DNA from: an uncultured Clostridia bacterium
GTDB taxonomy: Bacteria > Bacillota > Clostridia > Christensenellales > CAG-917
Assembly: GCA_944363035.1 (NCBI GenBank)
Contig: CALVTS010000003.1
Span: forward strand, 1 to 64,000
DNA length: 64,000 nt
Direction of reading: 5' to 3'
The position numbers and the translations under genes are program-made. The notes below the pieces were generated by a model that was given only the letters and a program-made list of their open reading frames with translations, was not told the DNA's origin and searched no databases. Every line of letters begins with the position of its first letter. Positions within the stretch are counted from its first letter, which is position 1. Of this stretch, positions 21,336-47,496 are shown in pieces.

Positions 21336-21395
21336 AGTGACAACACAAAAAGGAGACGGACGTGTCAAGGGTGGGAGCGTCGGGGCGGCGTTTTG

Positions 21396-21511: not shown

Positions 21512-21534
21512 GGCTGCGTTTGACGGGCACAAGA

Positions 21535-21561
21535 AACGGACGCCCCGAAAGGGCGTCCGTT
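21535..21561 (-). terminator. Terminator of the giant gene
   Basis: AACGGACGCCC and GGGCGTCCGTT form a perfect 11-bp stem with a 5-base loop, 40 bases past the stop of the giant gene. On the minus strand the stem ends in TT followed by TCTTGT, a modest T-tract. Confidence 0.75.
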
Positions 21562-21600: not shown

Positions 21601-24600
21601 TCATCTGTTCACGGTGAATACTCCGCTGGCGATGAATTGCGCCTTGGGGCTGCCGTCCGCATTCTTGTCGATGACCTTGCCGGAGGCGTCCACCACCGCG
21701 CCGATATAGGCTCGGAGCTTGTACGTCACGGATCTGCCGGGGATGGAGGGGACTTCGATGTTGCCGCCGGTGGGATTTGTCAGAGTGACATTGTAAGTCG
21801 CCTCAGACCAGTTGTCCTCAGACCAGTTGTTGTAGGAAACGGTCGCGGTGCCGTACCACACGACGAGCACATCGCCGAGCTTACCCTGAGCGGTCGCGCC
21901 GGGGGTGGACACCGACAGGTTGTTGTTGTACGCGGTCGCCTGTATCTTGACGGGGATACGGATGCGCTGACCGCCCGTGACCTGCATGGTGGCGTTGCCC
22001 GCGTTTTCAAGCCCGCTCGTTGCATTTGCGACAGTCACCGCCGCGGTGGACGGCATGATGACGCTGACGTAAGCCATCGACGGAGTATCCTGTCTTACTC
22101 TTGCGCCGAAGGTCACCTGCCCCGTCTCGACATTGAGGGTGGGCTGATAGACGTCAACGGTGAGAGTCCAGCCCGTGGGCATCTTGTGCGTGGAGGGCTG
22201 ATAGGGATAGATGGTGTACTTGCTCACAGCCGTGCCGAGGTCCGCGCCAACGGTGGTGTTGATATTCGATGAGAAGCTGCCGCCCTTGGTGGCATTGATG
22301 CGGCTCACGAGCTTGCGCTCGACGACGTAATCCACCTCATAGTTCTGCGTAGAGCCGTCGGGACCGGTGAGCTGAGCCACCAGCGCGACCCTGCCGCCGA
22401 GGTAGGTGACGGACATACTCGTGTAGCTCCACACAAAGGAGAATCCCGTCTCTTCGGCTTCCTGGGTGCCCGCCTTGTAGAAGATGACGGAACCGTCCGT
22501 GCCGGTGCCGCCGGTATAGCCCGTGATCTTGACCTTGACGGCGGTGATCTTTTCGGCTTCTTCACGGAAAGCGGAGAGGTCGAAGGAATAGGGGTCGATA
22601 AAGTTTCCGAGCCCGTTGTTCGGTCTGTCTCTCCAACCGACCGCGAGCGGATTGCCGCTTGTTACGAAGGGCGCGCCGTCGCCCGTGGTCGCCTCGACCT
22701 GGAGCCCGAAGTTCTGCGCATCGCCGCCCTCGATGACCCTCCTTTCCTCTATCCTGACCATCCCTTCTGCGGTGAAGCCCTGTTGCGCCATATGGGTGAC
22801 GGTGGCGCCGTTGGCGTCCGTGCCCGTGATGGCGGGGACGGTGAAGCGTGCGCCGAAGCTACCGCCGCGATAGGTGTTGCGGATAGCCGCGAGGTTGGAC
22901 CAAGTGACCGCGCTCTGCCTGACTATCGCGCCGCTCGTGGTGATGAAGTCCACCTTTTCGGGGAAGTAGAGATAGTATTGCTCCGCGACGGTCGTGCCGT
23001 CCTCGCCGAGGACCTCAACGACCTCGTCCACATCCAGCCCGTCGAAGGGGTCGAAGGAGAGCACGGAGCCGTCCCAATTCACCTTGAAGTAGTCAAGCCC
23101 TGCGGCGTTATCCCCGCGGAAGTAGACGGAGTAGTCGGAGGCTCCCTCCGCGTCCTTATTTTCAAAGGCGACGCTCTGCACTCTGCCGCTCTCGATATAG
23201 ATGGGCAGGGTGACGGTGCCCGTGACAGTGCTCTCTGCGCCGTCTTCGGACGCGACGTGCTTGACGCTGACGGAGGTGCGTTTGAGACCGCCGTTGTAGT
23301 TGTAGCTGACGGAGGAGTGATCCCAGGTGAGCTCCTCGCCCGCGAGGGTGTAGCTCGCGCCGTAGACGAAGACGTAGCCGCCGTTCATGCCCTCCGCAAG
23401 GACGTAGGAGTTGCCGACTCGGTTATAGCTCCTGTCCGCGAGCACGGTATAGCGCGCGACGTCTGCTCCTTCGGGGACAGAGGTGTAGTCGCCCACAGAG
23501 GAGCTCGACACGAACATGGAGTCGATATAGATCGTGATGTCGCCCACGCGGTGAGTGACGGTCTCGGTCACGGGCTCGGCGTCGGGATCGTCGGCGGGCG
23601 CGGGCTCGATGACGACTTCCTCGGTGTAGTTGAACCCGGAGAGGAGCGTGCCGTGTGTGGCGCGCTCGCCGTAGAGGACGGGCATGGGCTCCTGCTCATA
23701 GCCGTCCTCGGTCTTGGCGTACATATTGTCGTAGGGCGCGAAGGTGACGACGCCCTCCTCCGTGCCGCCGAGGTCGCCGTAGGCTATCGCGGAATCGAGG
23801 TTGTTGCCGTTGACGCGGACTGTCATGAAGTTGACCGCGATGGAACCGCTCAACGCCGCGCCCTCGCCGCTCTCGTAGCGGAGCTCGTAAGTGAGGCTGA
23901 GCTCGGTGGCGCTGTCTGCGGACTCGGGGACGATGAGCCCCGCGATGGCGAATGCGTACACCTTGACCTCGCCGCCCTCCGCGAAGGTGACGTCGATGAG
24001 GATATTGCCCTCTTCATCCCTCTCGAAGGGGTTGGCGTCTGCAAACCTGTACGCGTTGTAGACGGTGATCTCGGTGGGCAGAGCGGTGTCGGGGGAATAA
24101 GCCACTTCCACCACCTGACCGGGCCCGTTGTAGCGGCGCACGGTGTTGGAGAAGCGTCTTGTGGAGCCCGCGAAGGCGAACTCGTTGCCCTCCTCCTCGG
24201 AGAACCTTATCTCGGTGCTCTCGATGGTGCGCGCGTTGACGATGACGGGGACGACCGCCGTATAGACATTGCCCTCGTCGTCCTGCATGGTGACGATATT
24301 TTCGGGATAGCGCGCGCCCGCGAGGGAGAGGACGGAGTCATCCGTGAGGGTGTCGCTCCAGCTCGTGACGGTGACGGTCTTCTGATCCTGACCGACCACG
24401 ACCTCTATCTCCGCGCCCGCGAGCCCGTTGCCCGCGAGGTAGTCGCCGAAGGTGGCGTACTCAAGAGGATCGATGGAGAGCGCGCGATAGCGTGCGCTGA
24501 CTATCTTGTCCACCTGACTTGCCTGTTTGGCGTCGTCGAGGGTGGCGAGAGCCTCCTCGACATCCGCGTTGTCCGCGAGGGTGACCAGGACTTCCGTCTC

Positions 24601-26013
24601 CGTGCTCACGCCCTTCGAGGTGACGGTGAGGGTGGCGACGTCCGCCGTGCGGTCGGTGTCGAAGACGAATCCGTTCCAATCAAACGCCGCCTTGCGGGTC
24701 TTGCCCGTGCCGCCGTCCAGGACGGAGCCGCTCTCGGGCATCGCGCCGTAGAGTTGCTCCGCCGTGCTTATCGTGTAGGTCTGCACCCCGCCGCTGAGGA
24801 CGGTGGCGCTGTCATCCGAGAAGAGATAGGTGTCCGCACCCGTCGTGACGGGAGGCTCCTCCGAAGCGACGTTCCACTCGAATTCCCTATTCTCGCCTAT
24901 CGTGACGGTGAGGGTGACAGCCTGAGCCACGGAGGCGTAGCCCTTGCTCGCTATCTCGGAGGCTATCACGGAGTGATGCTCCTGCGAAGAGGCAATGACC
25001 CAGGACGCTTCGCTCGACTCGGGATCGGTGTAGTATATCGCGACGTCGTCCATCATGCCGTGCGCCAGCGAGAGCTCGCCGAGGGCGGAGGTCTCATACT
25101 GCCTCCAGATGTTGAATCCGCCGACATACATCGTCACGGGCACAGCGACCTCCTCGCCGACGTTGTTGACGAGGGCGTCTTTGAGCGCCGTGAGGTCCCA
25201 AGCCACTATCTCCCCGTTGCTGAAGGTGTTGTTGTAGTTCGGAGTGCCGTCGCCATTCACGAAGTTCCCGCTGACGGGACCGAAGGCTTCGAAGTAGGTC
25301 TCGATGAGCCCTCCGAGCTCGTTGAGATCGACGAGCCCGGTCGCGCCGATCGCAGTCGCGAGAGCTCCCCAATCGAAGAAGTCAAGGCTCCTGCCGTTTG
25401 AGAACTGATAGTTGCTCTGCTCCTGAGCTCCCAGCTTGGCAGTCTGGATGGTGACGGGGATCTCGGCATACTGCTCTGCCGCAAAGCCCCATTGATACCT
25501 GATGCCGACAGTCACCTGCCCGCCGTCCTCATAGGAGCTCTCGCCGTCCCAGCCGTAGTCGAAGTAGGAGAGATCCCACTCAAACACGCCGTCGGGCAGA
25601 TAGTTCGCGCCGTTGGAGGTCTTGATGACGTAGTAATCCACACCGGACTTCGTCACCGTGACGGGAGCGCCGTCCTTGAAGTCCATCAACCCGACATATG
25701 CGGGATAGACGTTGTAGAGCCCGTCGCTGTTCTTCCGATAGTCGTTGATGGTGTCATCCCACAGGAGCGCGAGACCCGCGTTGCCTGCGGCGTCGTAATA
25801 CCTTGTGCCGAAGAGGACGCTGTTGCTGTAGTCGTAGCCGCCGCCGAAATAGACGCGCACGAGGTCGGGCAACTCATACTTGCCGGAGTCGCCGTACATA
25901 ACGACGGTGATATCGTCGCCGCTGTCATTGGTTGTGGCGTCCAAGGCTTTTGCGAACTTCTGATCGTCGGTGATGTAGACGGGGATCTTCCCGACCACAA
26001 GGTTCAACGCATA
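21601..26013 (-). other. C-terminal Ig-like region of the giant protein
   Basis: Residues about 6,800-8,271 lack the EAVTA-type linkers and the Y-x-D-x-LY hairpin. They show repeated patterns common in bacterial Ig-like domains: short strands ending in VTIQTA, IPVYIESGRV, VPVIVNARTI and AEIPVTIQ, spaced about 90-150 residues apart, each with IxVxxxxV strands. The exact domain count could not be settled by eye. In surface proteins such a tail is usually a stalk or a binding region. Confidence 0.55.
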
Positions 26014-29000
26014 GCCGTACACATAGCCCGCGAGCCTGCCGCCCTCGCCGCTTACCATAGTATCCTCGTCCGCAGGCGTGTAATCGATCGCGCCGGCGTC
26101 CCAAGAGACGGGCACGGTGTGCGTCTGAGTGTCCTGGTTGACGAGATGGACTTTTGCATCCTTGGGCAGAGCCGCACCCACACCGCTCTCTCCGACGAGG
26201 AAGTCCGCGTTGAGAGTGCCCTCTGCCAAGGACTTCCCGCTTCCGTCATAGAGGGTGGCGTGCTTGGTTCCCACATCGTCCACAACTATCTTGTAGCCAT
26301 TCGTATCGATGTTCGTCTCCAGCCTGTCCGCCTCGAGGAGCTCGAAGAGCCCTTCGCCGGAATAGGTCGCCGAGGTGTCCACCAGGTTGCGCGGATTGAT
26401 GGATAGGACGTACGCCTCTTTGAGCGTACCGTTAGCGACGCTCGACGTGTTGAACAGATTCTGCCCGTAGATCGGTGTGCCGCTGTCGTTGATGCCTGCG
26501 AGCAGCCTTTGACCGCCGTCCTTCTCCACATTGACCATGAGCTCTATCGCCTGGATGCCGGGAGCCATCTCCCTTGCCGCATAACCGTTGTTCGCCTTGC
26601 CGTCCAATCCGTAGAAGGACTCGCTGGGGTTGAGGTCGATGTAGATGTTGAGCGAGGGGTTGGGAGCGTCGCTGTCATAGCTTGCGAACGTGGGCAGCAG
26701 CGAAGATACCAGCGCAGTCGCATCGCCAAGGCCTTTTCTTGCATTGCCGAGCAGACCTGCGAGGAAGGCTGAGAGATGGAACATATCGCGCAGCACCCAG
26801 TTCAGGAGCGCGGAAGGAATGGCCCTCGCATAAGGCTCGAGCAACTGCACCCTGCGCACCGTCTTCTCGTGCTCGGAGATGTTCATGTAGTCTATGCTGT
26901 CCAGTTCCGCAAACAGGTTGGACATCACCCACTTGCTGTTGCCGCTGCTGTTCTCGTGACGCCTGATTATATTTCCGAATTCATCTTCACCAGATCCACC
27001 CATCATCCAATTCGTGTCATAAGCGAAGTAGTAGAACTCCTTCCCACCTTCATGCTCCGCAACGCCGGTGCTGAGGTTCTTCCCGTCTATGGTCCATGTC
27101 ATGGCGCCGTTGGCGTCGATGGCGACATGGAGGAGGGAGAGGATGGTGGTGTACAGGAATATCATCAACTCGTTATACGCATCCTTGTTGAGCTCCACCT
27201 TGACGGAGATGAGGGAGGAGTCGGTGTCTGCAACGCCCTCGCCGCTGTGGTCGGGCATGGTGGCAAGATAGGGCTGATAGCCGTTCTTGTTGAAGAGGTT
27301 GACCTCCACCTTGTTGACCAGCCCGTTAAGGATGGACATGATGTCGCCGCCGCCATACGAATAGCCGGAAGTCCAGCTGGTGCCGTCGTCGGAGATAGCC
27401 CACTTGTATGGTCCGTTGACGTTGGTCGCTGCCGAGCCTCTTGTGGTGAACGCATTCTTGTCCAGAGTGTCGTTGTCGGTGACTATGCTACCGTCGCCGT
27501 TCGTCTTGAGTCCGTTGCCGTACAGCACGGTGTCATCTGCCGCAACGCCTGCCTCACCTTCGGACGCCGTGGTGGCGACAGGATCGCCGGGCTGCCAGGT
27601 CGCGGCGTCGCGGTCGTCGCCGTAGGCAAAGCTCGGGAAGAGTTGTCCTCCGCCTATGAGCGTTCCGAGGTTTATCCAGTTAAAGACTTTGAGCAAGTCT
27701 GCAAGACCAGACGCCCAGCCCATACCGACATCAACATCCGCTATCATGAGGTTGTTATTGCCGAAGTAGACTTTCGCCGTGAGCGCTTTGTCTTGGGAAG
27801 CGTCCGGATGATTTGCGGCGAGGTCCAGCCTGATTGCATAATCGTTGAGAGTGGTGAGACCGCCAAGCTGCTCCATACCGTTGCCTCCGGCTTGCTGATA
27901 CCCGTAGGATGACACTATGGACAGCGAGCTGTTGGTGGTCGTTCTCACCGACTTCAGGTCGCGCCCGACGCCGAAGTAGGTGTCACCGCTCGTGTCGAGG
28001 ACGACGCTGTAAGCCCTCCTGTCCACATTGATGGAGAGGTTCGGATCGATGCCGTCGATGAGGGACTGCAACAGGGTCATCACGCCTGCGGTGCCGGAAT
28101 AGGTGACGCCCGCGAACTGCGTCTTGACCATGTTGACCAGGTTGCCGGTGTCAAGCTGGTTTTCAAGCGCGATGTTGAAGTCGCCGAGGGTGAGGTGCAA
28201 GCCCGTGCCCGCGCCGTCCACGACGGCGTCCAGCGCGATGGAGCTGATGCCCCTGTCGCCGAAGGTGAGCCCCAAGCCGAGGGACTGCACATCGGGCAGT
28301 CCGCCTATGCCCGCGCTTTCCAGCGTGGGAGTGAGCAAGCCGAACACCATCTGGATGAGGGAGCGGTCGATGTTGAGACCGACATAGTTTTCCGCCAAGT
28401 CGATGCCCAGCGAGACGCTGTACGCGGCGCCGCCGTTGGCGGTCTCTTCCTCCGAGGTCTCCTCTTCGGGATCAGCCGCAGTCGCCGCTTCCTCCACGGG
28501 GTCGTATATCTCGCCTATGTTGGCGCCCAGCAAGCCCGCGATGCCCTGGAACTTGATCTTGCCCAGTCCGAGACCGCTGGCGTCGATGAAGATCGCGTCA
28601 TTGAATGCCGCAAGCTCGCCCGCTTCCACCGCGGTGGTGAGCTCGTATATCGTGCCGGTCTTGGCGTTGCTCAGCCTGGAGGAGCCGAGATAGTACACTT
28701 CCAGGATGGTGGAGTTGAAGGGAGAGCCCATGCCCACCGAGAGCCTGAGGTCGCTCAGGAGTATGCCGCCGATGCCGTACGCCATCAGCGCGCCGATGTT
28801 GAGGTCCGCCTCGAGGTCTATCGTGAGGTTGACTTCGCCCGCCGCGAAGGTGGCTTCGATCATAGTGGTGCGGTAGAACTGCTGTTCGCCAAGCGCTATG
28901 TACTGCTTAAGCTCGCCGTTCATGTCCGTGTAAAGGGACGTGTTGTAAGCGGTGCCTATCTGCTCATAAGTGACGGCGCCGTTGTCATCCGTCTTCGCCA

Positions 29001-38000: not shown

Positions 38001-41000
38001 ACTCAGAGCTCGCGAGGTCGAACATATCAAGCACCAGGGTGAGGTCCAGACGCAGGTGCGCCGAGGAGTAACCCTTGTTGGTCTCGGGTATCTCGATGAC
38101 CAGCCCCTCAAGATCGCCCAGGATGGACTTGAAGATCTGACCGAGGTCTATGGTGCCTTCCGAGATGGAGAGCTCGAGTTCCACGGACGCGCCCACCGTG
38201 ATGACGGAATCGTAGAACGGGAGCAGAGGTATATCGAAGTAGTACTCCGCGCCGTCCACGGGCTGGGTCACCTCGGTGTAGGTACCGTTTTCGTAGGTGT
38301 AGACATTCTTGTCCGCATCCGCTGCGGCGTCATACTTCTCGGGGACTTTGGTCTTGCCCTGAGTGATGTAGTCGGGCACCACTTTGCCCGTGCCGCCGAA
38401 GCTCAGCCCTATGCCGCCCAGCGAGAGCCCCAGATTCATGGTGCCGACGTGCGCGCCGAGAGAGAGATAGAACTCGTCGATGTGAGTGTAGGGATCGTAG
38501 ATGCGCAGAAGTTCGCCGTCGTCCTCGCGGACATAGCCGTACTTCCTCTCATAGGTCTGGACATAGCCGTTGTCGTCCAACTTGACCGCCTGATACGCCC
38601 CTTCGCGGAACACGGTCACCACGGTGTGCGCGGGCAGAGCCGTGGCGTCGGTGACCACCACACGGTCGCCGTCCGCGTTCTCGGCGTAGAAGGTGTATCT
38701 GTCGCGGTCGAGGATGACATCCTCGTCCTCCGCGAGCCTGACATACCTGCCCGTGCCGTCCGCGACCTCGGGATAGCTCACTTCCTCATAGAGGTTGTAT
38801 CTCCTGCCCTCTATGTCATAGAAGTTGCCGTCCTTGTCCTCGGCGTAGAAGGGACCCTCGTCCCCGGAAACTACCGCCACCAGATCGTAAGTGCCGCCCT
38901 CCGAAACGGGGGTGTAGCCTATCACTTTGCCGTCCTCGGTGATGGGCGCGTAACCGTCGCCCGCGATCGCCTTCATGAGTCCGGCTTCGTAGATGTTTTC
39001 GTATGCGTATTTGCCGATATCCGCGCCTATGGAGACCTCGAAGTTGTCAAAGATGTCCGCAAGACTGCCGATGTCGGGCACCAGCGCCGCAAGCAGAGCG
39101 CTGATGATGCTCTTGGTGATGACGATCTGCATCGCGGTGTCGGAATAGACCAGCTCGATGAGAGCGTCCCTCATCGCGTCGTCATCGCCGTTCGCCGCCG
39201 TGACCGCCGCCGCTTTCGCGAGGACCGCCTCTCCCGTCGCGGGGTCGTTGCCGTCTTCGCCGCTCGTGCCGACGAGCTCAGCCGCTTCAAGCACGAATTG
39301 CAGGAAGTTGGGCACATAAGAATAGTTGCTCACTATGTCGAACACGCCCGTGCCGTCGATATAGAGATTGCCGCCGGAGAGATAGATGCCCGCAAGCACC
39401 GTATCCTGATCCACGTTGCCCGCCGCGTCGATATCCAGCAGTTCGAGCGCGACTTCCAGGCTGTTGAGGTCGGACTCTTCCAGGAACTTGGCAAGTTTCT
39501 GATCGGAGTCGAGGGTGGCGTCGGCGAGCACGGAGAATGCGAGCTTGCCGAGATCCAGCCCTGCGGTGAGCCTGAACGCTATGCCGTCCTCGAATGCGGA
39601 ATCCGTGTTGAGTTCCAGCACTATGTCTTCAAGATACTGCGCGATGAGGGAGCCAAGATCGTAGCTGCCCTCGCCGTCCGTCTCGAAGGTCGCCATGCCG
39701 GACAGGCTCAGCGTCACCACCTGGGAGCCGAGCTCTGCTCCCTCCTCCTTGTTGACGAGGTTGATGATGTTCATCACCATGTCGGTCATGTTGATGTAGG
39801 TGCGTTTCTGCGCCGCGGTGAGCACGTCGGGGTTGGAGGTCGCGATGTCGATCTCTATGCCCGCGCTTGCCGCGATTTCGAATTCGAAGCCCGCGTTGGA
39901 CTCTGCCGCGACGACGAGTTCCAGCCCGTTGCCGCCGCCCACGTTGAGGCTTATCTTGCTGTCCTCGTCAAGGACGAAGTCCTCGAAGCGGAAGCCTTCC
40001 TCGGAACCCGCGATGAACGCGACGAGGTTGCCGAGCAGGTTGGACGGGAGCAGGATGTCCAGCCCCAGCCCGTTTTCGAGCAGGTTGAAGGAGCCGCCCG
40101 CAAGCGCGGCGTCCACGTTGCTGCGGATGACTATCTGACGCACGAGCGCGTTGAGGAACCCGTTGACGTCGAAGCTCTCCGTCGTGCCCTCCGTGCCGCC
40201 CTCGGCGCCGCCCTCCGTGCCGTTCGTCGCCGTGACGGCTTCGCCGGAACCCTCGGGGGTCTGTTCCTTCTCAAAGAAGGGAGCCACTTCCATCTCTTTC
40301 AGGATGCCGAACAGATCCGCGCTGATCTTGGGTCCGCCCAGCCCCGAGAGATCGAGGTAGACATAACCGTTGGCGAGATACACGCCGATGGCGGCGGTGT
40401 CGTTCTCGTCCTCGGGATTGAAGACTATCTGCAAACCGACCTGCAACGCGTTGAGTATCTCAAGGACGTCGAAAGTGGGCAACGCGAAATCGGAGAGTAT
40501 GCCCGAGAGCCCGAGCGTCTCGAGATCCAGCGTGCCGAAGATGCTTATCGCAAGGTCGTCGCCGATGGGATCGTCGATGTAAAGCTCCGCGCCGAGGGAC
40601 GCCACCAGCATATCCACTATGGCGCGCAGAGTCGCGTCCATCTCTCCGCCGCCTATCGCGTCGGAAACGGCGTCCAGACCGAACACGGTGTCGATGATAT
40701 CGCTGAGGCCAACGCCCCTGCGGATATACTTGCCCTCGTTGTCCTGCACGAAGGTGCCGTCGGGCAGTTTGGTGAACCTGTCCGCAAGCGGATAAGCGTC
40801 GAGCTCATCCTCGTTGGCGAGAGTGTATGTCGCGTCTGCGGAGTAACGGACGGTGAGGTCCAGCCCGAAGCGCGCGATGCTGCTCCTCTGATAGCTCTGG
40901 AAGGAGTTGTCGCTCGCCACCGCCGTGATGGTGTCGTTGACGTCGACGTTGACGGAATTGCTGACGTAGGGCTCTTCTATCGCTATGGCTATGTTCGCAT

Positions 41001-44000
41001 ATTTGGTGAAGACCTCCACGCTGACGGCGGGTCTGTCAAAGTCCACCGCAACGGAGACTTCCGCACCGAGATCCAGCGCGTCGAAGATGCCGTCGATGTC
41101 CGCATCCGTGCCCGCCACCGCGCCTATGACGCCGAGGAGCACCGCTTCGGTGACATTGAGCGCGAGATGCCCTTCGCTTATTTCGAGGATGATGTCCAGA
41201 GGAGTCTTTTCGGGCTCGACGGTCTCGGTCCCGTCCGTCGCCGTGACCGCTTCGGAGGTCGCCGAAGCGTCCGCCTCCGTGGCAAGCGCGCCGTTGACCG
41301 CGTCGAGCACGGCGGACACGAGAGCGGTGTTTTCGATCTTGAACCTGTTGCCCTCCGAGATCATGCCGAGGTCGACATAGAGCACGTCTCCTCTGACATA
41401 TGCGCCGAGGATGAGAGCGCCGTCGGCGCTGCCGCCGTCGCGCAGTTCGAGCATGACTTCCGTCTTCTCGGGATCGTTGAAGTAGATGTTCGCGCCCAGG
41501 CGGACGTCCACCGCGAGGGTGAGGTCGTCCCTTATCGCCACGCCGAGGTCGAGCATGATGGCGCTGGTCAGCGCGGAGAGTATGTCGCCGATGGGCAGTT
41601 CGCCGTTTTCAAGTTCCTCCGTATTGAGCAGAGTGAGCTCGAGAGACAACGTGGTGTCGAGGGACACGGCGACGTCATCGTCGTAGATGTTCTTGTATTC
41701 GGCGAGTTCCGCCTTGTCGATGACGCTCGCGCTTGCGTCGTTGACCGAGACGCCGAGGTCGCCGAGAGTTATGCCTATCGTCATGGGATCGGGCGCTATC
41801 GAGAGTTCGATGCCGATGTCGCGCCCCTCTTCGCCCATACCGTAGAACACCGAGACGAAGCTCCCTTCGGGATCCAGTTGCAGGAAGTTCTCCTCATCCA
41901 GCTCGTAGCCGGGCAGGAGGAGGTTGAGCAGAGTCACGAGCAGATTCGCCCCGAAGTTCACTCTCGCCTCGTCGTTGGTCACGTAAATGCGGTTGATGAG
42001 CCCGAATATCGTGCCGAGGATGTCCGTTTCCTCCTCGGGAGTTTCGGTGGTCGCGTCGCCCTCCGTCGAGGTGACCGCGCCGCCCTCTTCGCCTCCTTCG
42101 GGCGCGGAGGGAGTCTCCGTGCTCGCGATGAGAGAGCCGAGATCTATGCCGGGCACCGCGATCTTGCCGCCTATTATGCCGCCATCGGCGGAGCTTATGT
42201 ACAGAGTGCTCCTGCCGTCCTCACCCGCGATGATGTAGAGCGCGAGCAGATATTCGCCCTCCGCCATGTCGGGGGTGGAGATCTCCAACGCGATGTCGGA
42301 ATTGGAGAGGATATATTTCACCAGATCCTTGTCGTTCAGGCTCTCGGGGAAGCGCAGGAGCGCGCGGAGGTTGAAGTCTATCTCCTGAGACACGGTCTTG
42401 TCGATGACGAAGGAGAACACCAACCTCTCGATGAGGCTCTGCAAATTCGCGGTGATGCCCTCGATGCCGCCGGTGAAGTTGCCTATCCATTCGCCTATGC
42501 TCCACTCCGTCTCGCCGTCCGCACTCGCGGAGAGTTTGACGGAACCGCCGAGCTCGGCGTACACGCTGTCAAGGTCGAGCCCGTCCGCGCTGAACTCGTT
42601 GTTTTCGTTGAACAGAGAACCTATGCTCGGATAAGTCTCCGTCGTGACGTCGGCGGGGATGACGCTCGCCGCCTCGTCGAAGGCGACCTTGCCCAGCCCG
42701 ATGCCGAAGGGAGCCAGCGTCACTCTCACGTCCGCGAGAGTGCCGACGCCCACGGTCACATCGAGAAGATTGCCGTTTTCGTCCGCGTCGCCCGTGATAT
42801 TGCTCCAATCCAGGCTGAGCGCGGCGTCTATCTCGCCGAGGTCGATGCCGATGAGGTCGGTTATCACCTGAGTGAGACCCTGCGCCACTTCGATGACGAA
42901 GCCCTTGGAGGTGACCGTCATCAGGAATTCGAACGCACCCACGCTGTAATCGCCGTTCGCCGTGGTGACGGCGTCCCCTTCCGTGCCGGAAGAGGCGAGC
43001 AGGCTTTCGAGCAGAGCCATTATGTCGAGCTCCGTGCTCACGCGTGCGCCTATAAGCGCGCTCGCGTCAACATAGAGTATACCGTCTGCGTAATATGCGC
43101 CGAGCAGGACTTCGTCCGCGTCGTCCGCCTTGTTGAGGAGGCGCAGAGCGAGTTCCGTCTCGTTGTCACCGCTGACCGTCGCTCCCGTGAAGGAGGAGAG
43201 CAAGCTCCTGAGGTCGAGTTTCGCGTCAAGTTCGAGCGCGAGATCGAGGTCCACTCCCGTCGGGAAGCTGATGGTGCCGAGGTCGCCGCCCAAAGACATA
43301 TTGTTGGCGTGCAGATCGACGTCAAGCCCGAGCGCGAGGTCGAGGTTGACGTAAGGTTCGTTGAGGAAGTCCACAAAGACGAGACTGTCGTCCACCGCGA
43401 TGGAACTCTCGCCGTTGATGACGGCGTTGATCCCGCCCAGGGTCACGCCGAAGTCAAAGTTGTCGCCCACACCGAGAGTGAGCCCTATGGACAGCCCCTC
43501 CGAGGTGGAGCCGCCCGCTATCTGCAAGCCGTCGTTGAAGTCGATGCTCACACCGGCTTCCAGCCCGAGGGTCTCGTCCGTACCTGCGGCGTTTATCTCG
43601 AGCCCCGTCACTCCGATGAGGTCGAGGAGGGCGCCGAGCAGACCGGAACCGAGCACCACGTCGAGATAGAGGTCGCCAAGGGTCACGTCCGCCGTGGCGA
43701 TGATGGCAAGCAGTTGGGGAGGTATGACCGCGGCGGTACCCGTCGTATCATCCGTCGTGCCGTCGGTCGTACCGTCCGTCGTGCCGTCCGTGGCGGCGTC
43801 ATCCGCCGCTATCGCCTCGCTCGCTCCCGCCGCGTCGGCGAGGAAGGGGTTGAGGTCCACTTGCAGGGAAAGCCCGCCCAACAGCTCTTCGGAGGTGGCG
43901 ATGTACGCCACGCCCTCCACCAGCCATATGCGGAGAGGCGCGGTGCCCGTGCCGCCCTTCTGCGCAAGCTCAACATAGATGTTGAGGTCGGGGATGAGAG

Positions 44001-46416
44001 ACATGAAGTCGAATGCCTGAGTGCCATCGGCGAGAGTGGCTATGAGCTCGTTGACATTGGTGAGCTCGGCGTTGAGAGTGAGAGTCGCCGAAGTGCCGAA
44101 GGATTCGCCGAACGCCGCGAGCACCGAGACCATGAAGTCGTTCGCCTGCTCGAATTTGATGTCCGCGAAGTCGCCGCCCTTGACGTCGATGTTGAGATCG
44201 GCTTGGAGACCTATCTGTACGGACTCCACGCCCGAGAACATTTTGCCGATGTCCAGATCCACAAAGTCGTCGAGGGTCGCGAGCTTGATATACTCGCCGC
44301 TCTCGTGTTCGCTCACGAAAGTGGCGATCCTGTCATTGTAATAGGTCTCGTCCGCCACCGAGCCGAAGCGCGCGGTGATGGTCACGCCGAGGGAGGCGAA
44401 CTGCTCTTTGAGTTCGTCCATGCCCGTGAAGAGCCCGAGGTTGAGCTTGATCTCCTTGTCGCTTGCGAAACCGTGATTTTCGTAGGTCAGGCTCACGTCC
44501 TCGAGGGGGATACGCGCGCCTTCCATGTCTCCCGTGAACACGAGAGCGAATATGGATTGCAGGACGCCCTCGGTGAGAGCGATCTGTATCTTTTCGATGT
44601 TGAAGATGTTGCCGTTCATCTCAACGTCTATGCAGTTGAGTATGGACTGCACCATGCCGATGATGTCCACCTGAGGCTCGCCCTCATCGTTCGCGCTTAT
44701 CGCGCGCACGACCTTGCCCTCGTTCACCGCTTCCTGCGCGGCGGAAACGAAGGAGGCTACCCTCTCCTCTTCCTCGATGGTCAGACCGGCGTCGTAGAGA
44801 GCCGCCTGCACCGTGCCGACGAGATACTCGAAAGCGTTGCCGAGGATGCGGTTGACGTCCACGCCGTCAACATAGAATTTGCCCGTGCCGAGGAGCCCGG
44901 ACAGATCGACGTAGACGGATTCCTTCTCGCCCACGTAGCCTATGCTCGCGCGCACGTCCTCCGCGCTGTCCGCGCCCGTGAGTTCGATGAGAAGGTTGGT
45001 CTGCGTATTGTCGAACATATTGATGTCGCCGACGATGTGCAGTTTGAGGGTGCGATCGAGCCCCGAAATGTCGATCTGCTTGTCAAGGATATCGGCAATG
45101 TCGTCGGTGATGGAACCCTCGGGGAGAAGCCCCGTGATGAGGGTGCCGAATGCGCTCAGGAGCTCATTGGGCGTGACATCCCTCTCGTTGAGTTTGAGGT
45201 TGAGCGCAAGGGTGAGGTCCACCGTGACGAGGGAATATTCCGTCAGGCTGTCGAGGGTGGTCTCCCCCGTCTCCTCGTTCACTACGCCGAGCCCTCTGCC
45301 GCCCTCTTCCTCGGGGGCGAGCAGATAGCCCTCGACGTCCAGGAGAGGACGATCGTTGTTCCACTGTATGCCGTCTCCGCCGATGGAGATCTCGATGTGG
45401 TTCTGCTGTATGCCGATCTCATCCGCGAGATCGGTGCCGTAGGTGTCGAAGTCGAGCCCGACGTTGAGCCCTGCCGAAGAGAGCTCTCTCATGCCGTTGC
45501 CGTCATCGGGAGTGAGCTCGGCGACAAGATACAGCGACATATCCGAAAGAGCCTGCAAATAGGTAAGATCGATGCCCGTAAGGTCGTCCACGAGCCCGAA
45601 GATGTCGTTCAGCGTCATGCCGCCGAGCGCGTCTCCGATGACGTCGTCGAGCGCGCCGCCGAATATGCCGCTCAACGCGCCGCCGATGATGTCCGCAAGA
45701 GGTATGGGCATCTCAAGACGCTGAGAGCCGTCCTCGTTGGTGATGAGTCTGGAAGAGCCGAAGAGGTTGGGAAGTATGCCCGTGATGGCGCCGAGCACCC
45801 CTTCGTCGGAGGAAAGAATGTTGTTGAGAAGGAACTGAGCAAGACTGTTGTCGTCGAGAAGTCCGCGCAAAGTATCGACGACCGCCGTCATATTCATCCT
45901 GTCCGTCTTGACCACGGTCGCGCCGGCTTTCAGCCCGGTGCAGTCGTAGACGACGGTGGAATCGAAATAATATACGCCGAGGAGCACGTCGCCGAGGGTG
46001 ACCTCGCCGTTCACGTCGCTCGCTTCGCACAGCTCGAAACGGAACTGCGTGTTGGCGTCGTTTTCAAGATCGATGTCCGCCTGGACCTTGAACGCGTATG
46101 TATATGTCACGGCGTCCTTGACGTACTTGAACGTCACGACGTAATCGTTGAACACATACGGCTCCACGTTGGAATTGGAGGCTTTGGCGGCGTCCATGAG
46201 CGTGTTCCACGCTTCAAGCCCCGTCAGAGTCTCATAGCCTTGGTCATCGGGATCTTCGCCGTCCGGAGTGACGGGGATGGGAGGAGTGATATCCGTCCCG
46301 CCGTCCGGACCGGTGCCGCCGCCGGTGCCCGTCGTGGGTTCGTTGCACGCCACGAAAAGCGCCGCCGTAAGGCAGAGTACGAGAATAATCAAAAACGCGA
46401 ACTTCAGTTTTCTCAT
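21601..46416 (-). CDS. Giant modular lipoprotein, 8,271 residues, function unknown
   Basis: One uninterrupted 24.8-kb frame, roughly 0.87 MDa. The ATG at 46416 follows GGAGGGA; it begins MRKLKFAF, has a hydrophobic core and the lipobox-like LFVAC with Cys24, then a Gly/Thr/Pro linker, so it should be exported and lipid-anchored. About 14-15 divergent beta-rich modules fill residues 60-6,400. Each has alternating hydrophobic strands, a hallmark hairpin such as YLVDDTLYADLSAL or YYADGILYVDASAL, then an acidic linker like SSEAVTA near residues 573, 868, 1149, 1446, 1723, 2061, 2402, 2881, 3588, 4359, 5076, 5607, 5978 and 6288. Middle modules carry Tyr-rich insertions, a Pro-Glu run (about 3,094-3,117) and one zinc-knuckle-like HTYQDNVCTGCGA (about 4,855). 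Residues about 6,800-8,271 resemble Ig-like beta repeats. There is no LPxTG or transmembrane C-terminus. Each module's strand pattern recalls LolA/LppX-type lipid-binding lipoproteins, but this is inference; adhesion or a surface stalk is equally possible. Confidence 0.9.
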   Translation of the reverse strand: MRKLKFAFLIILVLCLTAALFVACNEPTTGTGGGTGPDGGTDITPPIPVTPDGEDPDDQGYETLTGLEAWNTLMDAAKASNSNVEPYVFNDYVVTFKYVKDAVTYTYAFKVQADIDLENDANTQFRFELCEASDVNGEVTLGDVLLGVYYFDSTVVYDCTGLKAGATVVKTDRMNMTAVVDTLRGLLDDNSLAQFLLNNILSSDEGVLGAITGILPNLFGSSRLITNEDGSQRLEMPIPLADIIGGALSGIFGGALDDVIGDALGGMTLNDIFGLVDDLTGIDLTYLQALSDMSLYLVAELTPDDGNGMRELSSAGLNVGLDFDTYGTDLADEIGIQQNHIEISIGGDGIQWNNDRPLLDVEGYLLAPEEEGGRGLGVVNEETGETTLDSLTEYSLVTVDLTLALNLKLNERDVTPNELLSAFGTLITGLLPEGSITDDIADILDKQIDISGLDRTLKLHIVGDINMFDNTQTNLLIELTGADSAEDVRASIGYVGEKESVYVDLSGLLGTGKFYVDGVDVNRILGNAFEYLVGTVQAALYDAGLTIEEEERVASFVSAAQEAVNEGKVVRAISANDEGEPQVDIIGMVQSILNCIDVEMNGNIFNIEKIQIALTEGVLQSIFALVFTGDMEGARIPLEDVSLTYENHGFASDKEIKLNLGLFTGMDELKEQFASLGVTITARFGSVADETYYNDRIATFVSEHESGEYIKLATLDDFVDLDIGKMFSGVESVQIGLQADLNIDVKGGDFADIKFEQANDFMVSVLAAFGESFGTSATLTLNAELTNVNELIATLADGTQAFDFMSLIPDLNIYVELAQKGGTGTAPLRIWLVEGVAYIATSEELLGGLSLQVDLNPFLADAAGASEAIAADDAATDGTTDGTTDGTTDDTTGTAAVIPPQLLAIIATADVTLGDLYLDVVLGSGLLGALLDLIGVTGLEINAAGTDETLGLEAGVSIDFNDGLQIAGGSTSEGLSIGLTLGVGDNFDFGVTLGGINAVINGESSIAVDDSLVFVDFLNEPYVNLDLALGLDVDLHANNMSLGGDLGTISFPTGVDLDLALELDAKLDLRSLLSSFTGATVSGDNETELALRLLNKADDADEVLLGAYYADGILYVDASALIGARVSTELDIMALLESLLASSGTEGDAVTTANGDYSVGAFEFLMTVTSKGFVIEVAQGLTQVITDLIGIDLGEIDAALSLDWSNITGDADENGNLLDVTVGVGTLADVRVTLAPFGIGLGKVAFDEAASVIPADVTTETYPSIGSLFNENNEFSADGLDLDSVYAELGGSVKLSASADGETEWSIGEWIGNFTGGIEGITANLQSLIERLVFSFVIDKTVSQEIDFNLRALLRFPESLNDKDLVKYILSNSDIALEISTPDMAEGEYLLALYIIAGEDGRSTLYISSADGGIIGGKIAVPGIDLGSLIASTETPSAPEGGEEGGAVTSTEGDATTETPEEETDILGTIFGLINRIYVTNDEARVNFGANLLVTLLNLLLPGYELDEENFLQLDPEGSFVSVFYGMGEEGRDIGIELSIAPDPMTIGITLGDLGVSVNDASASVIDKAELAEYKNIYDDDVAVSLDTTLSLELTLLNTEELENGELPIGDILSALTSAIMLDLGVAIRDDLTLAVDVRLGANIYFNDPEKTEVMLELRDGGSADGALILGAYVRGDVLYVDLGMISEGNRFKIENTALVSAVLDAVNGALATEADASATSEAVTATDGTETVEPEKTPLDIILEISEGHLALNVTEAVLLGVIGAVAGTDADIDGIFDALDLGAEVSVAVDFDRPAVSVEVFTKYANIAIAIEEPYVSNSVNVDVNDTITAVASDNSFQSYQRSSIARFGLDLTVRYSADATYTLANEDELDAYPLADRFTKLPDGTFVQDNEGKYIRRGVGLSDIIDTVFGLDAVSDAIGGGEMDATLRAIVDMLVASLGAELYIDDPIGDDLAISIFGTLDLETLGLSGILSDFALPTFDVLEILNALQVGLQIVFNPEDENDTAAIGVYLANGYVYLDLSGLGGPKISADLFGILKEMEVAPFFEKEQTPEGSGEAVTATNGTEGGAEGGTEGTTESFDVNGFLNALVRQIVIRSNVDAALAGGSFNLLENGLGLDILLPSNLLGNLVAFIAGSEEGFRFEDFVLDEDSKISLNVGGGNGLELVVAAESNAGFEFEIAASAGIEIDIATSNPDVLTAAQKRTYINMTDMVMNIINLVNKEEGAELGSQVVTLSLSGMATFETDGEGSYDLGSLIAQYLEDIVLELNTDSAFEDGIAFRLTAGLDLGKLAFSVLADATLDSDQKLAKFLEESDLNSLEVALELLDIDAAGNVDQDTVLAGIYLSGGNLYIDGTGVFDIVSNYSYVPNFLQFVLEAAELVGTSGEDGNDPATGEAVLAKAAAVTAANGDDDAMRDALIELVYSDTAMQIVITKSIISALLAALVPDIGSLADIFDNFEVSIGADIGKYAYENIYEAGLMKAIAGDGYAPITEDGKVIGYTPVSEGGTYDLVAVVSGDEGPFYAEDKDGNFYDIEGRRYNLYEEVSYPEVADGTGRYVRLAEDEDVILDRDRYTFYAENADGDRVVVTDATALPAHTVVTVFREGAYQAVKLDDNGYVQTYERKYGYVREDDGELLRIYDPYTHIDEFYLSLGAHVGTMNLGLSLGGIGLSFGGTGKVVPDYITQGKTKVPEKYDAAADADKNVYTYENGTYTEVTQPVDGAEYYFDIPLLPFYDSVITVGASVELELSISEGTIDLGQIFKSILGDLEGLVIEIPETNKGYSSAHLRLDLTLVLDMFDLASSEFAVEIYNLSSESGAEVRWLAAYYLNDMIYIDLSFFNLPKLAVPMTEISTWIEDTLGDLLNASVYDDVEVGTGSSEAITADDVAEADADAVADLTTEEKVAALLISPRKLAISIGNAMMRYVLSILTIGDDPLSDLVYDELLGGLDVTIDVSDGVEVSIGAELMLEGDRYQLVAGTGTLDEGERYFVFDANGDGNEHPEGLFVAVSDEVYREASSEDLNGDADTYVRYEAEKVGDAWVYYVYSLTDGTDAAYDVYYVFDEATDAYKEYVFETKEPLYTREDVYTEVYTEPTPEPEPEPEPEPEPEPEPEPEPGVDTQDETAGGETTTPDEGAEPAPAIPDGLEEGKTYYVKTVTEEGDVYTVYEGSLTEIPAGTTLYEHSYGYALYEGDLVEGTVYYVKRTGTEGDVYVSMVRNEVENGAKLYARETKAVENRGVYLMEEGTSANVNDYDTVLSLYLGVNNVDMFFTEEREYSLSQEELSEFYDFNQLDTVSLSETISLDLLFADGSDIDLAALFEYLFPDSAYDFETIVGVTSGSDALNNIERGLAITVSLEFKLGAFINYLRSLDALYDLGTIAEDGTFQALAALPEGDLDLVTFIELIMTMIGAKAEERDGSIYYEDDNVEDLFGLETFLYFINASVVLTTTSSDGTPEHTMLGVYMTLGDNEGVTYDKDDPDHEGQQLYSHYYANVYGDYGYVEGQGYTPISDIVGGYDGVRYSYDPSFLYPDEKGDLVREDAGFYVDLSYLGQPGVFIDLTELIDFVNGMMKDTSSASEEGTESTGEAVTAANGDGTTDEGFSLPIDLGELLGVQGDLSDSLPLLTSEIAAYIRAFVFGARITSTYIRILVQTDFLDQILTLLTGDFNFGAEFEQSYLGINVDVNNYLYAPLVGTTDEKGNVIAAADHDQIVFSDTRFAIERDDANGMYYVSVTLAGESVFALRDDMSAAELASYDVEELGYWNIIPIETYLNVNGEYIPTTDASNADWLRAERYEATDGMAEFNEALIGTYKFYVPAGTEYAGVANDKGMAEFANGEKIYVVYPSATQKPFIEARIWLWDHSVSLGINMPTTEGAEYTYTEQAGGDYRAVEKVTYAPDAEIGEDAENGRDYLYYRGNYYQIKLDKLVQGNDFVSVTDWEAFRSAPYDGDYYLHIVSDEGFMAYIPITRADVYEQQVYKTVYEYVGKGEGDYKRNTTSSLISVPEFHADFNQPSADYVMGDDASKYYVDASGNLQVLEDEEYDGVTYVRDDFTFVHSADTGRFTSVSDAREAFLEMWAPTYDSDGDGVVDEATANDFNMNFSVYLSENFDVYGEDAGADLAGTPIFYDGEYVNYGDTGELYYINLTIRGSISVSQYKEYLTEEDWNLRFGNTEGWAAAPKYALVRGHYVAWDDAAHAGLKQYGMYAASTSTVQNVLGAIFGDMDALFTVQDGYEATLPFEIRATVMIDYASADEDAYNTLYVAGLELAIDLWRTEADETLTHVLGLYYMSDPMNIGDNNDSNDVLNTSALYLDLSWILGPTAKVKVDLSDYPLETLLNDMVLSSLLGDGEEDTTGSSEAVTAAIDPVADPDKATVLLNVFSRSIALKASAGFLKLVIDLIAPDMTNTLEEMLPNLAIHAQIDAAPYDITIGASLFDNEGNGLIDLGITLNLFNTEEKTEGLQIGFGSLESYAEMSAERLHELTKGEATGADYMYYHGMFTRVEEYAEDGRTYYKQGGEGEKGYAPIEAGDDPAKLAEEGKLFVLDNETYYEPLKGNDAVSATPVEDLYVEIPAGYIMLEDADDYAWASGGNYYEKVEAGAPLEGGNKYYFLNDGGVFQGLNNYYATWASINGRALYKLDSGEYVAVSDATAIKEGEVYYVRDEKPTEPEEPSGDGTGDGTGDGSDESGSEQKPEYKYTSVLELAKTDFAGKQLYAATKTYSGTKLTLYYYNYNATNASGMMTQYRVAYPAAPGGEAEFVDYDNTGRSTGSARLYVSYSEAVRRSGAAVVNSRFGITTADEANTVRYAKDANGGHKAYSVFGNYQTLLALDLGVLLGGETNEEVAKDPTHEHTYQDNVCTGCGAVDALGVIVGGLQSAGLKTVELGGTLSLDLTFSDVLNWTRQMTRLMEVDGRDDNYFQMLLASLAQNSAEFVSMIGLDVDLALQLNVEGLIGMLPELLSMPEGATPDVASLLPAILAGAKIYLEVAIDTNFYGESIMDAEPIKLWVDVTDDLYLNIYITAPDLGRVVGLAEYSDPTDASTVNTAIGDFFAQGVKIENLINLGDLLSGAGGGSSEAVTAAEGGSGIIVDIGQASTGLLSEDIWGVLDLILGQVLFARDMVSVGITENLIAELIAVLVPEFDEEDLVLLPTFTVTDGDDTSGINLNVGGGSLGLTVNLGVKGGFDDFTAIEDLDAELIERLIGAEGNNTYGIDSFDTYLRSVAYMTENEDGTFSPVRGEKGQVTTAQATAQNAAIVLSTEEYALAVYASPEEAWLGDRYEIVDFDADGNPVFGSWVRDENGDLETEGEAVEGKDNHTYRYTLEPVADEIAYKNAFVGSPNGAYGILPEEYQDYQGMLGGQVSEGDYVTYGAGTHMLVSRIERLTGEAYTGARYSFDEDHVVGEYALLGDVTIALSLGDLGLSVNQPFSAPETFTYYDMDEGIDVTKHYTDMTAVNEASLRLSTAIDVGFWGNTGANINLGALADMLFGLDAIKGALGGATLVGSDLDINITGDMGSDEYPYFTVKLDAYLDMATYTMQAALEVYRNNADGTEGDKLIAVYLVDDTLYADLSALLGEGVRVAITSLGIEELLATELGGLLGTDGTGQAEAFTASIGDTAGLTLHDYAYLAVLINPGYFSIQLTMAVVDAIIAKVAEDNPDLGLDMELPDIGDIQIESEGKDGNLLSLNLKMSEDFGASLDINHLYIGTEPVFTSEDIGEFKTEGEGAYKPIYDVVTGLNDEFTISASASATISMTSEGLTPESDKYDESLAGWVIELLTGLLGSNSFFVSAFDPKTDAEYNKYQGPVYVAKTDDNGAVTYEQIGTAYNTSLYTDMNGELKQYIALGEQQFYRTTMIEATFAAGEVNLTIDLEADLNIGALMAYGIGGILLSDLRLSVGMGSPFNSTILEVYYLGSSRLSNAKTGTIYELTTAVEAGELAAFNDAIFIDASGLGLGKIKFQGIAGLLGANIGEIYDPVEEAATAADPEEETSEEETANGGAAYSVSLGIDLAENYVGLNIDRSLIQMVFGLLTPTLESAGIGGLPDVQSLGLGLTFGDRGISSIALDAVVDGAGTGLHLTLGDFNIALENQLDTGNLVNMVKTQFAGVTYSGTAGVMTLLQSLIDGIDPNLSINVDRRAYSVVLDTSGDTYFGVGRDLKSVRTTTNSSLSIVSSYGYQQAGGNGMEQLGGLTTLNDYAIRLDLAANHPDASQDKALTAKVYFGNNNLMIADVDVGMGWASGLADLLKVFNWINLGTLIGGGQLFPSFAYGDDRDAATWQPGDPVATTASEGEAGVAADDTVLYGNGLKTNGDGSIVTDNDTLDKNAFTTRGSAATNVNGPYKWAISDDGTSWTSGYSYGGGDIMSILNGLVNKVEVNLFNKNGYQPYLATMPDHSGEGVADTDSSLISVKVELNKDAYNELMIFLYTTILSLLHVAIDANGAMTWTIDGKNLSTGVAEHEGGKEFYYFAYDTNWMMGGSGEDEFGNIIRRHENSSGNSKWVMSNLFAELDSIDYMNISEHEKTVRRVQLLEPYARAIPSALLNWVLRDMFHLSAFLAGLLGNARKGLGDATALVSSLLPTFASYDSDAPNPSLNIYIDLNPSESFYGLDGKANNGYAAREMAPGIQAIELMVNVEKDGGQRLLAGINDSGTPIYGQNLFNTSSVANGTLKEAYVLSINPRNLVDTSATYSGEGLFELLEADRLETNIDTNGYKIVVDDVGTKHATLYDGSGKSLAEGTLNADFLVGESGVGAALPKDAKVHLVNQDTQTHTVPVSWDAGAIDYTPADEDTMVSGEGGRLAGYVYGYALNLVVGKIPVYITDDQKFAKALDATTNDSGDDITVVMYGDSGKYELPDLVRVYFGGGYDYSNSVLFGTRYYDAAGNAGLALLWDDTINDYRKNSDGLYNVYPAYVGLMDFKDGAPVTVTKSGVDYYVIKTSNGANYLPDGVFEWDLSYFDYGWDGESSYEDGGQVTVGIRYQWGFAAEQYAEIPVTIQTAKLGAQEQSNYQFSNGRSLDFFDWGALATAIGATGLVDLNELGGLIETYFEAFGPVSGNFVNGDGTPNYNNTFSNGEIVAWDLTALKDALVNNVGEEVAVPVTMYVGGFNIWRQYETSALGELSLAHGMMDDVAIYYTDPESSEASWVIASSQEHHSVIASEIASKGYASVAQAVTLTVTIGENREFEWNVASEEPPVTTGADTYLFSDDSATVLSGGVQTYTISTAEQLYGAMPESGSVLDGGTGKTRKAAFDWNGFVFDTDRTADVATLTVTSKGVSTETEVLVTLADNADVEEALATLDDAKQASQVDKIVSARYRALSIDPLEYATFGDYLAGNGLAGAEIEVVVGQDQKTVTVTSWSDTLTDDSVLSLAGARYPENIVTMQDDEGNVYTAVVPVIVNARTIESTEIRFSEEEGNEFAFAGSTRRFSNTVRRYNGPGQVVEVAYSPDTALPTEITVYNAYRFADANPFERDEEGNILIDVTFAEGGEVKVYAFAIAGLIVPESADSATELSLTYELRYESGEGAALSGSIAVNFMTVRVNGNNLDSAIAYGDLGGTEEGVVTFAPYDNMYAKTEDGYEQEPMPVLYGERATHGTLLSGFNYTEEVVIEPAPADDPDAEPVTETVTHRVGDITIYIDSMFVSSSSVGDYTSVPEGADVARYTVLADRSYNRVGNSYVLAEGMNGGYVFVYGASYTLAGEELTWDHSSVSYNYNGGLKRTSVSVKHVASEDGAESTVTGTVTLPIYIESGRVQSVAFENKDAEGASDYSVYFRGDNAAGLDYFKVNWDGSVLSFDPFDGLDVDEVVEVLGEDGTTVAEQYYLYFPEKVDFITTSGAIVRQSAVTWSNLAAIRNTYRGGSFGARFTVPAITGTDANGATVTHMAQQGFTAEGMVRIEERRVIEGGDAQNFGLQVEATTGDGAPFVTSGNPLAVGWRDRPNNGLGNFIDPYSFDLSAFREEAEKITAVKVKITGYTGGTGTDGSVIFYKAGTQEAEETGFSFVWSYTSMSVTYLGGRVALVAQLTGPDGSTQNYEVDYVVERKLVSRINATKGGSFSSNINTTVGADLGTAVSKYTIYPYQPSTHKMPTGWTLTVDVYQPTLNVETGQVTFGARVRQDTPSMAYVSVIMPSTAAVTVANATSGLENAGNATMQVTGGQRIRIPVKIQATAYNNNLSVSTPGATAQGKLGDVLVVWYGTATVSYNNWSEDNWSEATYNVTLTNPTGGNIEVPSIPGRSVTYKLRAYIGAVVDASGKVIDKNADGSPKAQFIASGVFTVNR
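27530..44710 (-). repeat. Tandem module region with EAVTA-type linkers
   Basis: Fourteen acidic linkers punctuate this stretch. Well-preserved copies are SGEAVTATNG, TSEAVTATDG, SSEAITADD, TGEAVTAANG and SSEAVTAA (twice); degenerate ones are VRAISAND, QAEAFTAS, EEAATAADP and GEAGVAAD. Spacing in residues is about 295, 281, 297, 277, 338, 341, 479, 707, 771, 717, 531, 371 and 310. DNA identity between modules is low, so this is an old amplification followed by divergence and insertion, not a recent duplication. Confidence 0.8.
37065..37138 (-). repeat. Pro-Glu dipeptide run within the giant gene
   Basis: About a dozen consecutive Pro-Glu dipeptides, encoded by GGCTCG/GGTTCG-type hexamers on the plus strand. 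It is preceded by TEPTP and followed by an acidic, Thr-rich stretch. Such PE runs form stiff, extended spacers and are prone to copy-number change by slippage. Confidence 0.9.
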
Positions 46417-46476
46417 AACTTCCCTCCTATGCTCTTGCGCACGTAAACGCGCTCGCATAGATAATAATACGAAGCA

Positions 46477-46505: not shown

Positions 46506-46576
46506 GGGGGGTTAAATATAATTAACAAAACCTTAAAATGTGAAAAGCGTGAAAAATTCGTAAAAAAATTCAAAGA

Positions 46577-46598
46577 CGGAAAGAGTTAACTCTTTCCG
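46577..46598 (-). terminator. Palindromic terminator after the PIG-L gene
   Basis: A 22-bp perfect palindrome centred on GAGTTAACTC lies 76 bases beyond the PIG-L stop. T-rich tracts flank it on both sides, so it could act in both directions; on the minus strand it is followed by TCTTTGAATTTTTTT. Confidence 0.75.
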
Positions 46599-46673
46599 CG
46601 CTTTTTGTCTTTTTTTGCCGAAAATTGACCGGGAGGGGCGCTTTCTCCCTTCCGCGCCCGCCGAGGCTTGACG

Positions 46674-47465: not shown

Positions 47466-47496
47466 TTCCTTTCCTTGAAACTCTCGTGATTGCAAC

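Follow-up and report, generated by a model that had tools for sequence, protein, structure and literature searches.

A conserved giant lipoprotein with a predicted array of fourteen LolA-like units in a family of uncultured gut Clostridia

The window analyzed here, a 64,000-nucleotide stretch of the genome of an uncultured Clostridia bacterium, harbors on its minus strand a single gene (21601..46416) that encodes a lipoprotein of 8,271 residues (887 kDa, pI 4.05) and comprises 1.5% of the 1.6-Mb assembly. This giant gene is real and conserved rather than an artefact or a pseudogene. The best overall explanation of its product, to which we would give an even chance of being correct, is a lipoprotein rod that handles amphipathic molecules outside the membrane.

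Results

A single frame with lipoprotein and ribosome-binding signals

An open reading frame listing extends the gene to 21601..46458 (minus strand), corresponding to 8,285 residues, when the upstream ATG is taken as the start. We assign the true start to the conserved ATG at 46416, giving 8,271 residues, because a ribosome-binding site, AGGAGGG (46422..46428, minus strand), lies 5 nt before it and because relatives with an intact 5′ end in the aligned set all start at the equivalent M(R/K)(R/K)...lipobox. Residues 1 to 23 and the lipobox cysteine C24 (46345..46416, minus strand) form a lipoprotein signal peptide, MRKLKFAFLIILVLCLTAALFVA followed by C24, which is kept in relatives with an intact 5′ end and has the layout of a bacterial lipoprotein of the Lgt/Lsp type, i.e., a charged n-region, a hydrophobic h-region, and a lipobox (LFVA-C) ending in Cys near the N terminus; a linker rich in Gly, Pro, and Asp comes right after C24. 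A promoter-like pair, TTCACA-18-TATATT (46515..46544, minus strand), which is a consensus match only (10/12 matches), and a terminator-like hairpin that separates the giant gene from the PIG-L gene upstream (46576..46599, minus strand) suggest a separate transcription unit.

An earlier sequence-only reading of this DNA had described one 8,271-residue frame (start 46416, stop 21601) with a clear lipoprotein signal, a strong ribosome site, and a dedicated terminator, and the first three of these stand. The terminator is likely rather than proven: a clear hairpin follows the stop codon (21531..21559, minus strand; CGGACGCCC-TTTCG-GGGCGTCCG-TTTCTT, read directly), but it is absent from the calls of the automatic terminator scan. 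That reading had further set the protein apart from NRPS, PKS, RTX, and FHA types and had seen no sortase signal. Scanning the full-length protein with Pfam and NCBIfam bears this out, with condensation, adenylation, KS, RTX nonapeptide, and haemagglutinin domains all absent, and the giant contains neither an LPxTG motif nor a hydrophobic C-terminal segment. No significant Pfam or NCBIfam domain of any kind is found in the entire giant, where only low-complexity or sub-threshold matches appear. Two intergenic tandem repeats are present in the window, one of 40 bp × 2 downstream of the giant gene (21253–21337) and one of 65 bp × 3 at the window edge (148–348).

Relatives keep the frame intact

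Searches with the C-terminal 999 residues and the N-terminal 2,319 residues of the giant reveal relatives in which the gene is a single frame without internal stops; a contig scan of genomes with a conserved stretch of the giant returned 15 loci, and one with its C-terminal 699 residues returned zero matches. The full-length alignment comprises 17 relatives with both ends in the DNA retrieved and one cut by a contig edge. Aligned relatives from the same family range from 7,256 to 10,437 residues and share 23 to 62% identity with the window protein, and the N-terminal lipobox is kept in 17 of them. GC-rich codons do not account for the open frame, because the GC content of the relatives' genomes spans 35% to 63% (ten genomes measured). 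The closest pair, G019/G023, is characterized by dN of 0.146 and dS of 0.745 over 10,395 codons (dN/dS ≈0.2), and a pair from the genus of the window, G000/G005, by dN of 0.308 and dS of 0.832 over 7,675 codons, the latter dS nearing saturation. By these substitution estimates, the giant gene is under purifying selection. Two outcomes that would have refuted the sequence-only reading, a frame disrupted in independent assemblies and a dN/dS near 1, are not seen: the frame is intact in such assemblies, and dN/dS falls far short of 1. The ortholog survey that the sequence-only reading had proposed for length and module number gives the lengths above and 13 to 15 units in full-length members. Among the sampled sources of the relatives are roe deer and water buffalo.

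A 4,064-residue frame (34252–46446, plus strand) lies antisense to the giant gene. We rejected a coding role for this frame, as antisense frames vary in length among the GC-rich relatives (5,757 residues in G002) and vanish in the low-GC G016 and G019; on this pattern, it is best read as a codon-usage shadow.

Fourteen diverged units and a distinct C-terminal part

Self-comparison of the alignment with hhalign reveals 14 diverged repeats of ≈290 residues each, spanning residues 75 to 6128, and with a unit HMM delimits an array of 14 LolA-like units (28033..46194, minus strand). Units 1 to 5 occupy residues 75–372, 389–727, 725–1017, 1014–1283, and 1278–1581; units 6 to 10 residues 1575–1865, 1908–2230, 2226–2559, 2730–3036, and 3539–3788; and units 11 to 14 residues 4197–4519, 5036–5233, 5449–5754, and 5812–6128. 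A unit profile built from 117 units detects exactly 14 in the window protein and 13 to 15 in other full-length family members. Sister units within one protein share little sequence. Several unit matches abut or overlap with no linker (725/727, 1014/1017, 1278/1283, 1575/1581, and 2226/2230), and inserts of 170 to 520 residues are found at several other junctions. Some of these inserts are of low complexity, Glu-Pro-rich and Gly/Asp-rich, and are absent from most relatives; low-complexity or hairpin-like inserts at residues 3071–3239 (36700–37206) and 4611–4721 (32254–32586) show a Glu-Pro repeat, a Gly/Asp repeat, and "YYVK/YYVR" motifs. Runs of at least nine alternating aliphatic and polar residues number 31, versus 8.7 ± 2.6 in shuffled sequences (a 3.6-fold excess). 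Such alternating strands are as expected for an amphipathic sheet and, at most, compatible with the binding of acyl chains in a cavity.

The C-terminal part (residues 6129–8271; 21604..28032, minus strand) harbors a conserved segment without an assigned family (residues ≈6170–6620), followed by stretches with weak Ig-like (Big_4-type) signals; LolA-like units are absent from these last ≈2,100 residues. Big_4 Ig-like matches are found in 9 of 19 family members at an E value of 0.1 (best E 1.6e-7), and in the window protein, Big_4 (PF07532) scores 13.6 to 15.9 bits against a cut-off of 22.1 (E 0.0097). The C-terminal part is conserved no better than the array. A shorter relative carries List_Bact repeats at its N terminus.

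The predicted unit fold is LolA-like

An AlphaFold2 model of unit 4 (residues 1018–1275; 42592..43365, minus strand), computed with the 117 units as input alignment, has a pLDDT of 86.7 and a pTM of 0.78 and adopts a LolA-like topology. In a Foldseek search of this model against 350,542 PDB chains, ranks 1 to 25 are all LolA, LolB, LprG, or LprF (E 1.4e-4 to 4e-3; probability 0.89–1.00), followed by unrelated chains at a probability of 0.23 or less; the overlay itself is loose (TM 0.24–0.35, rmsd 11–14 Å). VIA-align likewise places the LolA superfamily in nearly all of its top rows (best Z 7.3, rmsd 8.1, 146 aligned), with LolA, RseB, EPDR1, and LolB at Z scores of 6 to 7.3 and outer-membrane porins below at 5.2 to 5.5; a Z score under 8 may reflect no more than a shared arrangement. 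The predicted model thus has the open β-barrel topology with a helical lid that typifies LolA, at the TM and Z values just given.

Sequence comparisons return none of this relationship. At an E value of 0.1, none of the 117 units matches a LolA, LppX/LprG, or other lipid-binding Pfam family, apart from a single lipocalin-like match (E 0.066) at chance level, and the unit profile has zero matches among PDB sequences at an E value of 5. Because sequence profiles do not match, we call the units LolA-like and do not file them as LolA; the model points to a LolA-like topology in which the sheet is probably curved differently. A model of four neighboring units (residues 765–1957; 40546..44124, minus strand) has a mean pLDDT of 61 and a pTM of 0.46. 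Two different units in it match LolA-type chains independently, and the model is too uncertain for unit packing to be read from it.

Distribution and collinearity of the array

The giant is found in 25 of the 31 family genomes of at least 85% completeness and in 8/8 genera. A unit-profile search finds no array in G030, G032, G033, G034, or G011, except for a marginal match in a 1,025-residue frame of G032; some of these are fragmented assemblies, and G030, G032, G033, and G011 are at least 90% complete. With no array found by profile search in these four family genomes, the giant is not obviously essential, and assembly gaps may explain some of the absences.

The unit is present in 86 of 395 genomes of the order, distributed over six families; in a sample of the class, it is found in 3 of 393 genomes, all three within the order. 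These related poly-LolA-like lipoproteins contain 3 to 23 units in 1,834 to 13,589 residues, each with an N-terminal lipobox-like signal. The 13,589-residue lipoprotein frame belongs to another family of the order (L101–L104, G241:C2; 20851–61617 of the joined stretch). A 9,118-residue giant in G041:C2 (L134/L105) is directly followed downstream by a second very long frame, which exceeds 3,000 residues in the part retrieved and begins with a hydrophobic N terminus. The genome of the window itself encodes a second large lipoprotein in a 1,735-residue frame (L076, G000:C6), whose similarity to the giant is confined to the signal-peptide region (53% over about 60 residues).

In comparisons with G009, G013, and G020, each of the 14 units finds its best match in the unit at the same position, allowing in G009 for one unit split into two matches; this also applies to 13 of 14 units in G016 and G019, where the first unit is not found by profile search. 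Collinearity also holds between G084 and G225, members of another family, but not between families. Because arrays are collinear within families and not between them, each array was fixed early in its family and has diverged unit by unit thereafter. This frozen order suggests a constraint specific to each unit, unlike the length-variable repeats of adhesins.

Neighboring genes and the cell envelope

A PIG-L/LmbE-type deacetylase gene (46674..47498, minus strand) adjoins the giant gene upstream. Among the 31 family genomes, it is present in 15 and adjoins the giant in all 15. Genus g4 keeps its giants without the deacetylase, on which ground we rejected it as an obligate partner; gene content indicates a frequent neighbor. 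Further upstream and syntenic are genes for a mutarotase-like protein (47626..48501, minus strand; a match below the family cut-off) and a GH20 β-hexosaminidase family enzyme (48555..50075, minus strand). A heparan-α-glucosaminide N-acetyltransferase family membrane protein (50570–51709, plus strand) is encoded close to the GH20 and PIG-L genes, and these three form an apparent amino-sugar gene cluster, to which the giant may be linked. Downstream of the giant, an auxin-efflux-type transporter (20120–21151, minus strand) and an SPFH/band-7 zinc-ribbon protein (18933–20054, minus strand) are syntenic in most of the genera compared.

Mycobacterial LppX and LprG are LolA-like, and PapA5 makes waxy lipids. 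The window contains two related PapA5/condensation-type acyltransferase genes (56836–58158 and 59414–60766, minus strand), conserved in the family and both below NCBIfam cut-offs, with an α/β hydrolase between them (58229–59179). We rejected these PapA-like enzymes as obligate partners of the giant, since an acyltransferase persists in genomes without a giant.

No Omp85 is found in the genome of the window, and 7 of 14 control genomes have one. Its absence suggests a single membrane, in which case the giant would act outside that membrane, and leaves no sign in this genome of the outer-membrane lipoprotein pathway in which LolA and LolB have their place.

Discussion

The sequence-only reading correctly took the giant for an anchored lipoprotein, which proves to be conserved and under selection, but missed the 14-unit LolA-like array, the weak Ig-like signals, and the clade-wide family, some members of which are larger. 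The important surface function that it proposed is an inference. Given its signal peptide, the giant would be exported via the general secretion route, acquire a lipid at Cys24, and stay anchored in the single cell membrane. The first ≈6,100 residues would form a rod of 14 nonidentical LolA-like domains, each with an open β-sheet, lid helices, and an aliphatic inner face that could line a hydrophobic pocket, and the last ≈2,100 residues would form a distal part with Ig-like domains. Characterized members of this superfamily bind acyl chains, those of lipoproteins in LolA and LolB, of glycolipids in LprG and LprF, and of lipids in EPDR1. By analogy, the likeliest ligands are amphipathic molecules at the cell surface, i.e., lipids, glycolipids, lipid-linked glycans, or acylated proteins, which the rod might store or relay between the membrane and the outer surface or gut environment. 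The frozen order of units appears to fit unit-specific roles better than a passive spacer. Against lipid handling stand the loose structural overlay, the absence of a match to any lipid-binding family, an acyltransferase that does not track the giant, and the inserts at unit junctions.

The main rival, which we hold to be a real possibility though on the unlikely side of even, is a giant adhesin in which LolA-like units bind no lipid and serve as a stiff stalk, raising a C-terminal Ig-like tip past the cell wall so that it can attach to host mucus, food particles, or other cells. An N-terminal anchor, a repetitive middle, and an Ig-like distal part are the usual plan of adhesins. The Big_4 matches in 9 of 19 family members and the List_Bact repeats of the shorter relative fit this plan, and the upstream GH20, mutarotase, and PIG-L genes would point to host or dietary amino-sugar glycans. 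However, stalk repeats usually vary fast in number and stay alike in sequence, whereas the number and order of units here are frozen across the family and sister units share little sequence; moreover, a stalk has no need of a lipid-carrier fold, and the C-terminal part is conserved no better than the array. Known Big/Ig-like surface adhesins likewise combine an anchor, repeats, and an Ig-like distal part, the last being putative in the giant, but use sortase and Ig-like main arrays, in contrast to the lipid anchor, LolA-like main array, and frozen unit number of the giant.

We consider it improbable that the units instead line up edge to edge to create a single long hydrophobic groove along which lipids slide outward from the membrane. 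Such a bridge would work like eukaryotic VPS13/ATG2 or bacterial AsmA-type proteins, built of LolA-like units and without Omp85. The linkerless junctions (725/727 to 2226/2230) and the fixed unit order are consistent with a continuous groove, and the loose overlay on closed LolA could mean a flatter, more open sheet in the model. Other junctions carry inserts of 170 to 520 residues, however, the four-unit model, at a pTM of 0.46, is too uncertain to show a continuous groove, a second membrane to bridge to was not found, and AsmA or VPS13 chains, which we considered explicitly, are absent among the rows listed by Foldseek (neither list of best 50 rows) or VIA-align. The AsmA/TamB/YhdP and VPS13-type bridges do resemble the giant in their long arrays of diverged β units with amphipathic strands in fixed order, but they are built from another unit and bridge two membranes. 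Finally, the chance that the gene is an assembly error, a pseudogene, or a noncoding open frame is negligible. The window does come from a fragmented assembly (30 contigs), and long antisense frames in its GC-rich genus warn that open frames alone can mislead, but the ortholog survey already refutes this explanation with intact frames in many independent assemblies at 35 to 63% GC, signs of purifying selection, and a conserved start and signal.

Returning to the lipid-handling rod, its closest known counterparts are the proteins of the LolA/LolB superfamily (LolA, LolB, RseB, LprG, LprF, EPDR1, and the staphylococcal Csa1 lipoproteins), which have the same predicted unit topology; several members are lipoproteins or are found in Gram-positive bacteria, and most bind acyl chains. 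The solved chains matched here are about 150 to 280 residues long, as compared with 14 units in one chain in the giant, which also differs by its lack of a sequence match and its loose overlay, and by a genome with no Omp85 and hence no sign of an outer-membrane Lol pathway. Bacterial proteins exceeding 5,000 residues are mostly NRPS or PKS (PMC11573180), a set with which the giant shares its size class but none of the NRPS/PKS domains. Giant1–5 of Apilactobacillus kunkeei, a host-associated Firmicute with a small genome, are extracellular proteins of 3,000 to 8,000 residues conserved across related species (PMC12863079). They resemble the giant in size class and conservation and differ in architecture, with a β-solenoid N terminus and α-helical repeats and, in the text of that paper, no mention of lipoproteins or LolA (PMC12863079). 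We found no description of tandem LolA-like giants in the open-access literature (preprints outside its scope) or the databases searched.

A broader proposal, which we regard as doubtful, is that an order of Clostridia without detected Omp85 handles lipids at the cell surface by means of a rod or conduit, formed by giants that fuse as many as 23 LolA-like units and reach 13,600 residues; this would be a previously undescribed lipid-transfer machine, parallel to the VPS13/AsmA bridges but of a different fold. The group to which the giant belongs is among the largest nonenzymatic bacterial proteins, is family-wide in uncultured gut bacteria and spread over the order, and is marked by no domain in Pfam or NCBIfam. 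Its recognizable fold raises a testable idea, namely whether a fold that elsewhere carries single lipids can work as a chain of fourteen, which, if true, would be relevant to the ways in which lipids are moved or stored by bacteria outside the membrane. The frozen unit order makes these proteins a good case for asking why evolution keeps a gene of 25 to 40 kb intact in a 1.6-Mb genome. A three-unit relative of 1,834 residues (L133, G039:C12; 2292–7793), encoded in a genome that also harbors a 12-unit protein of 7,109 residues, is of a handy size for experiments.
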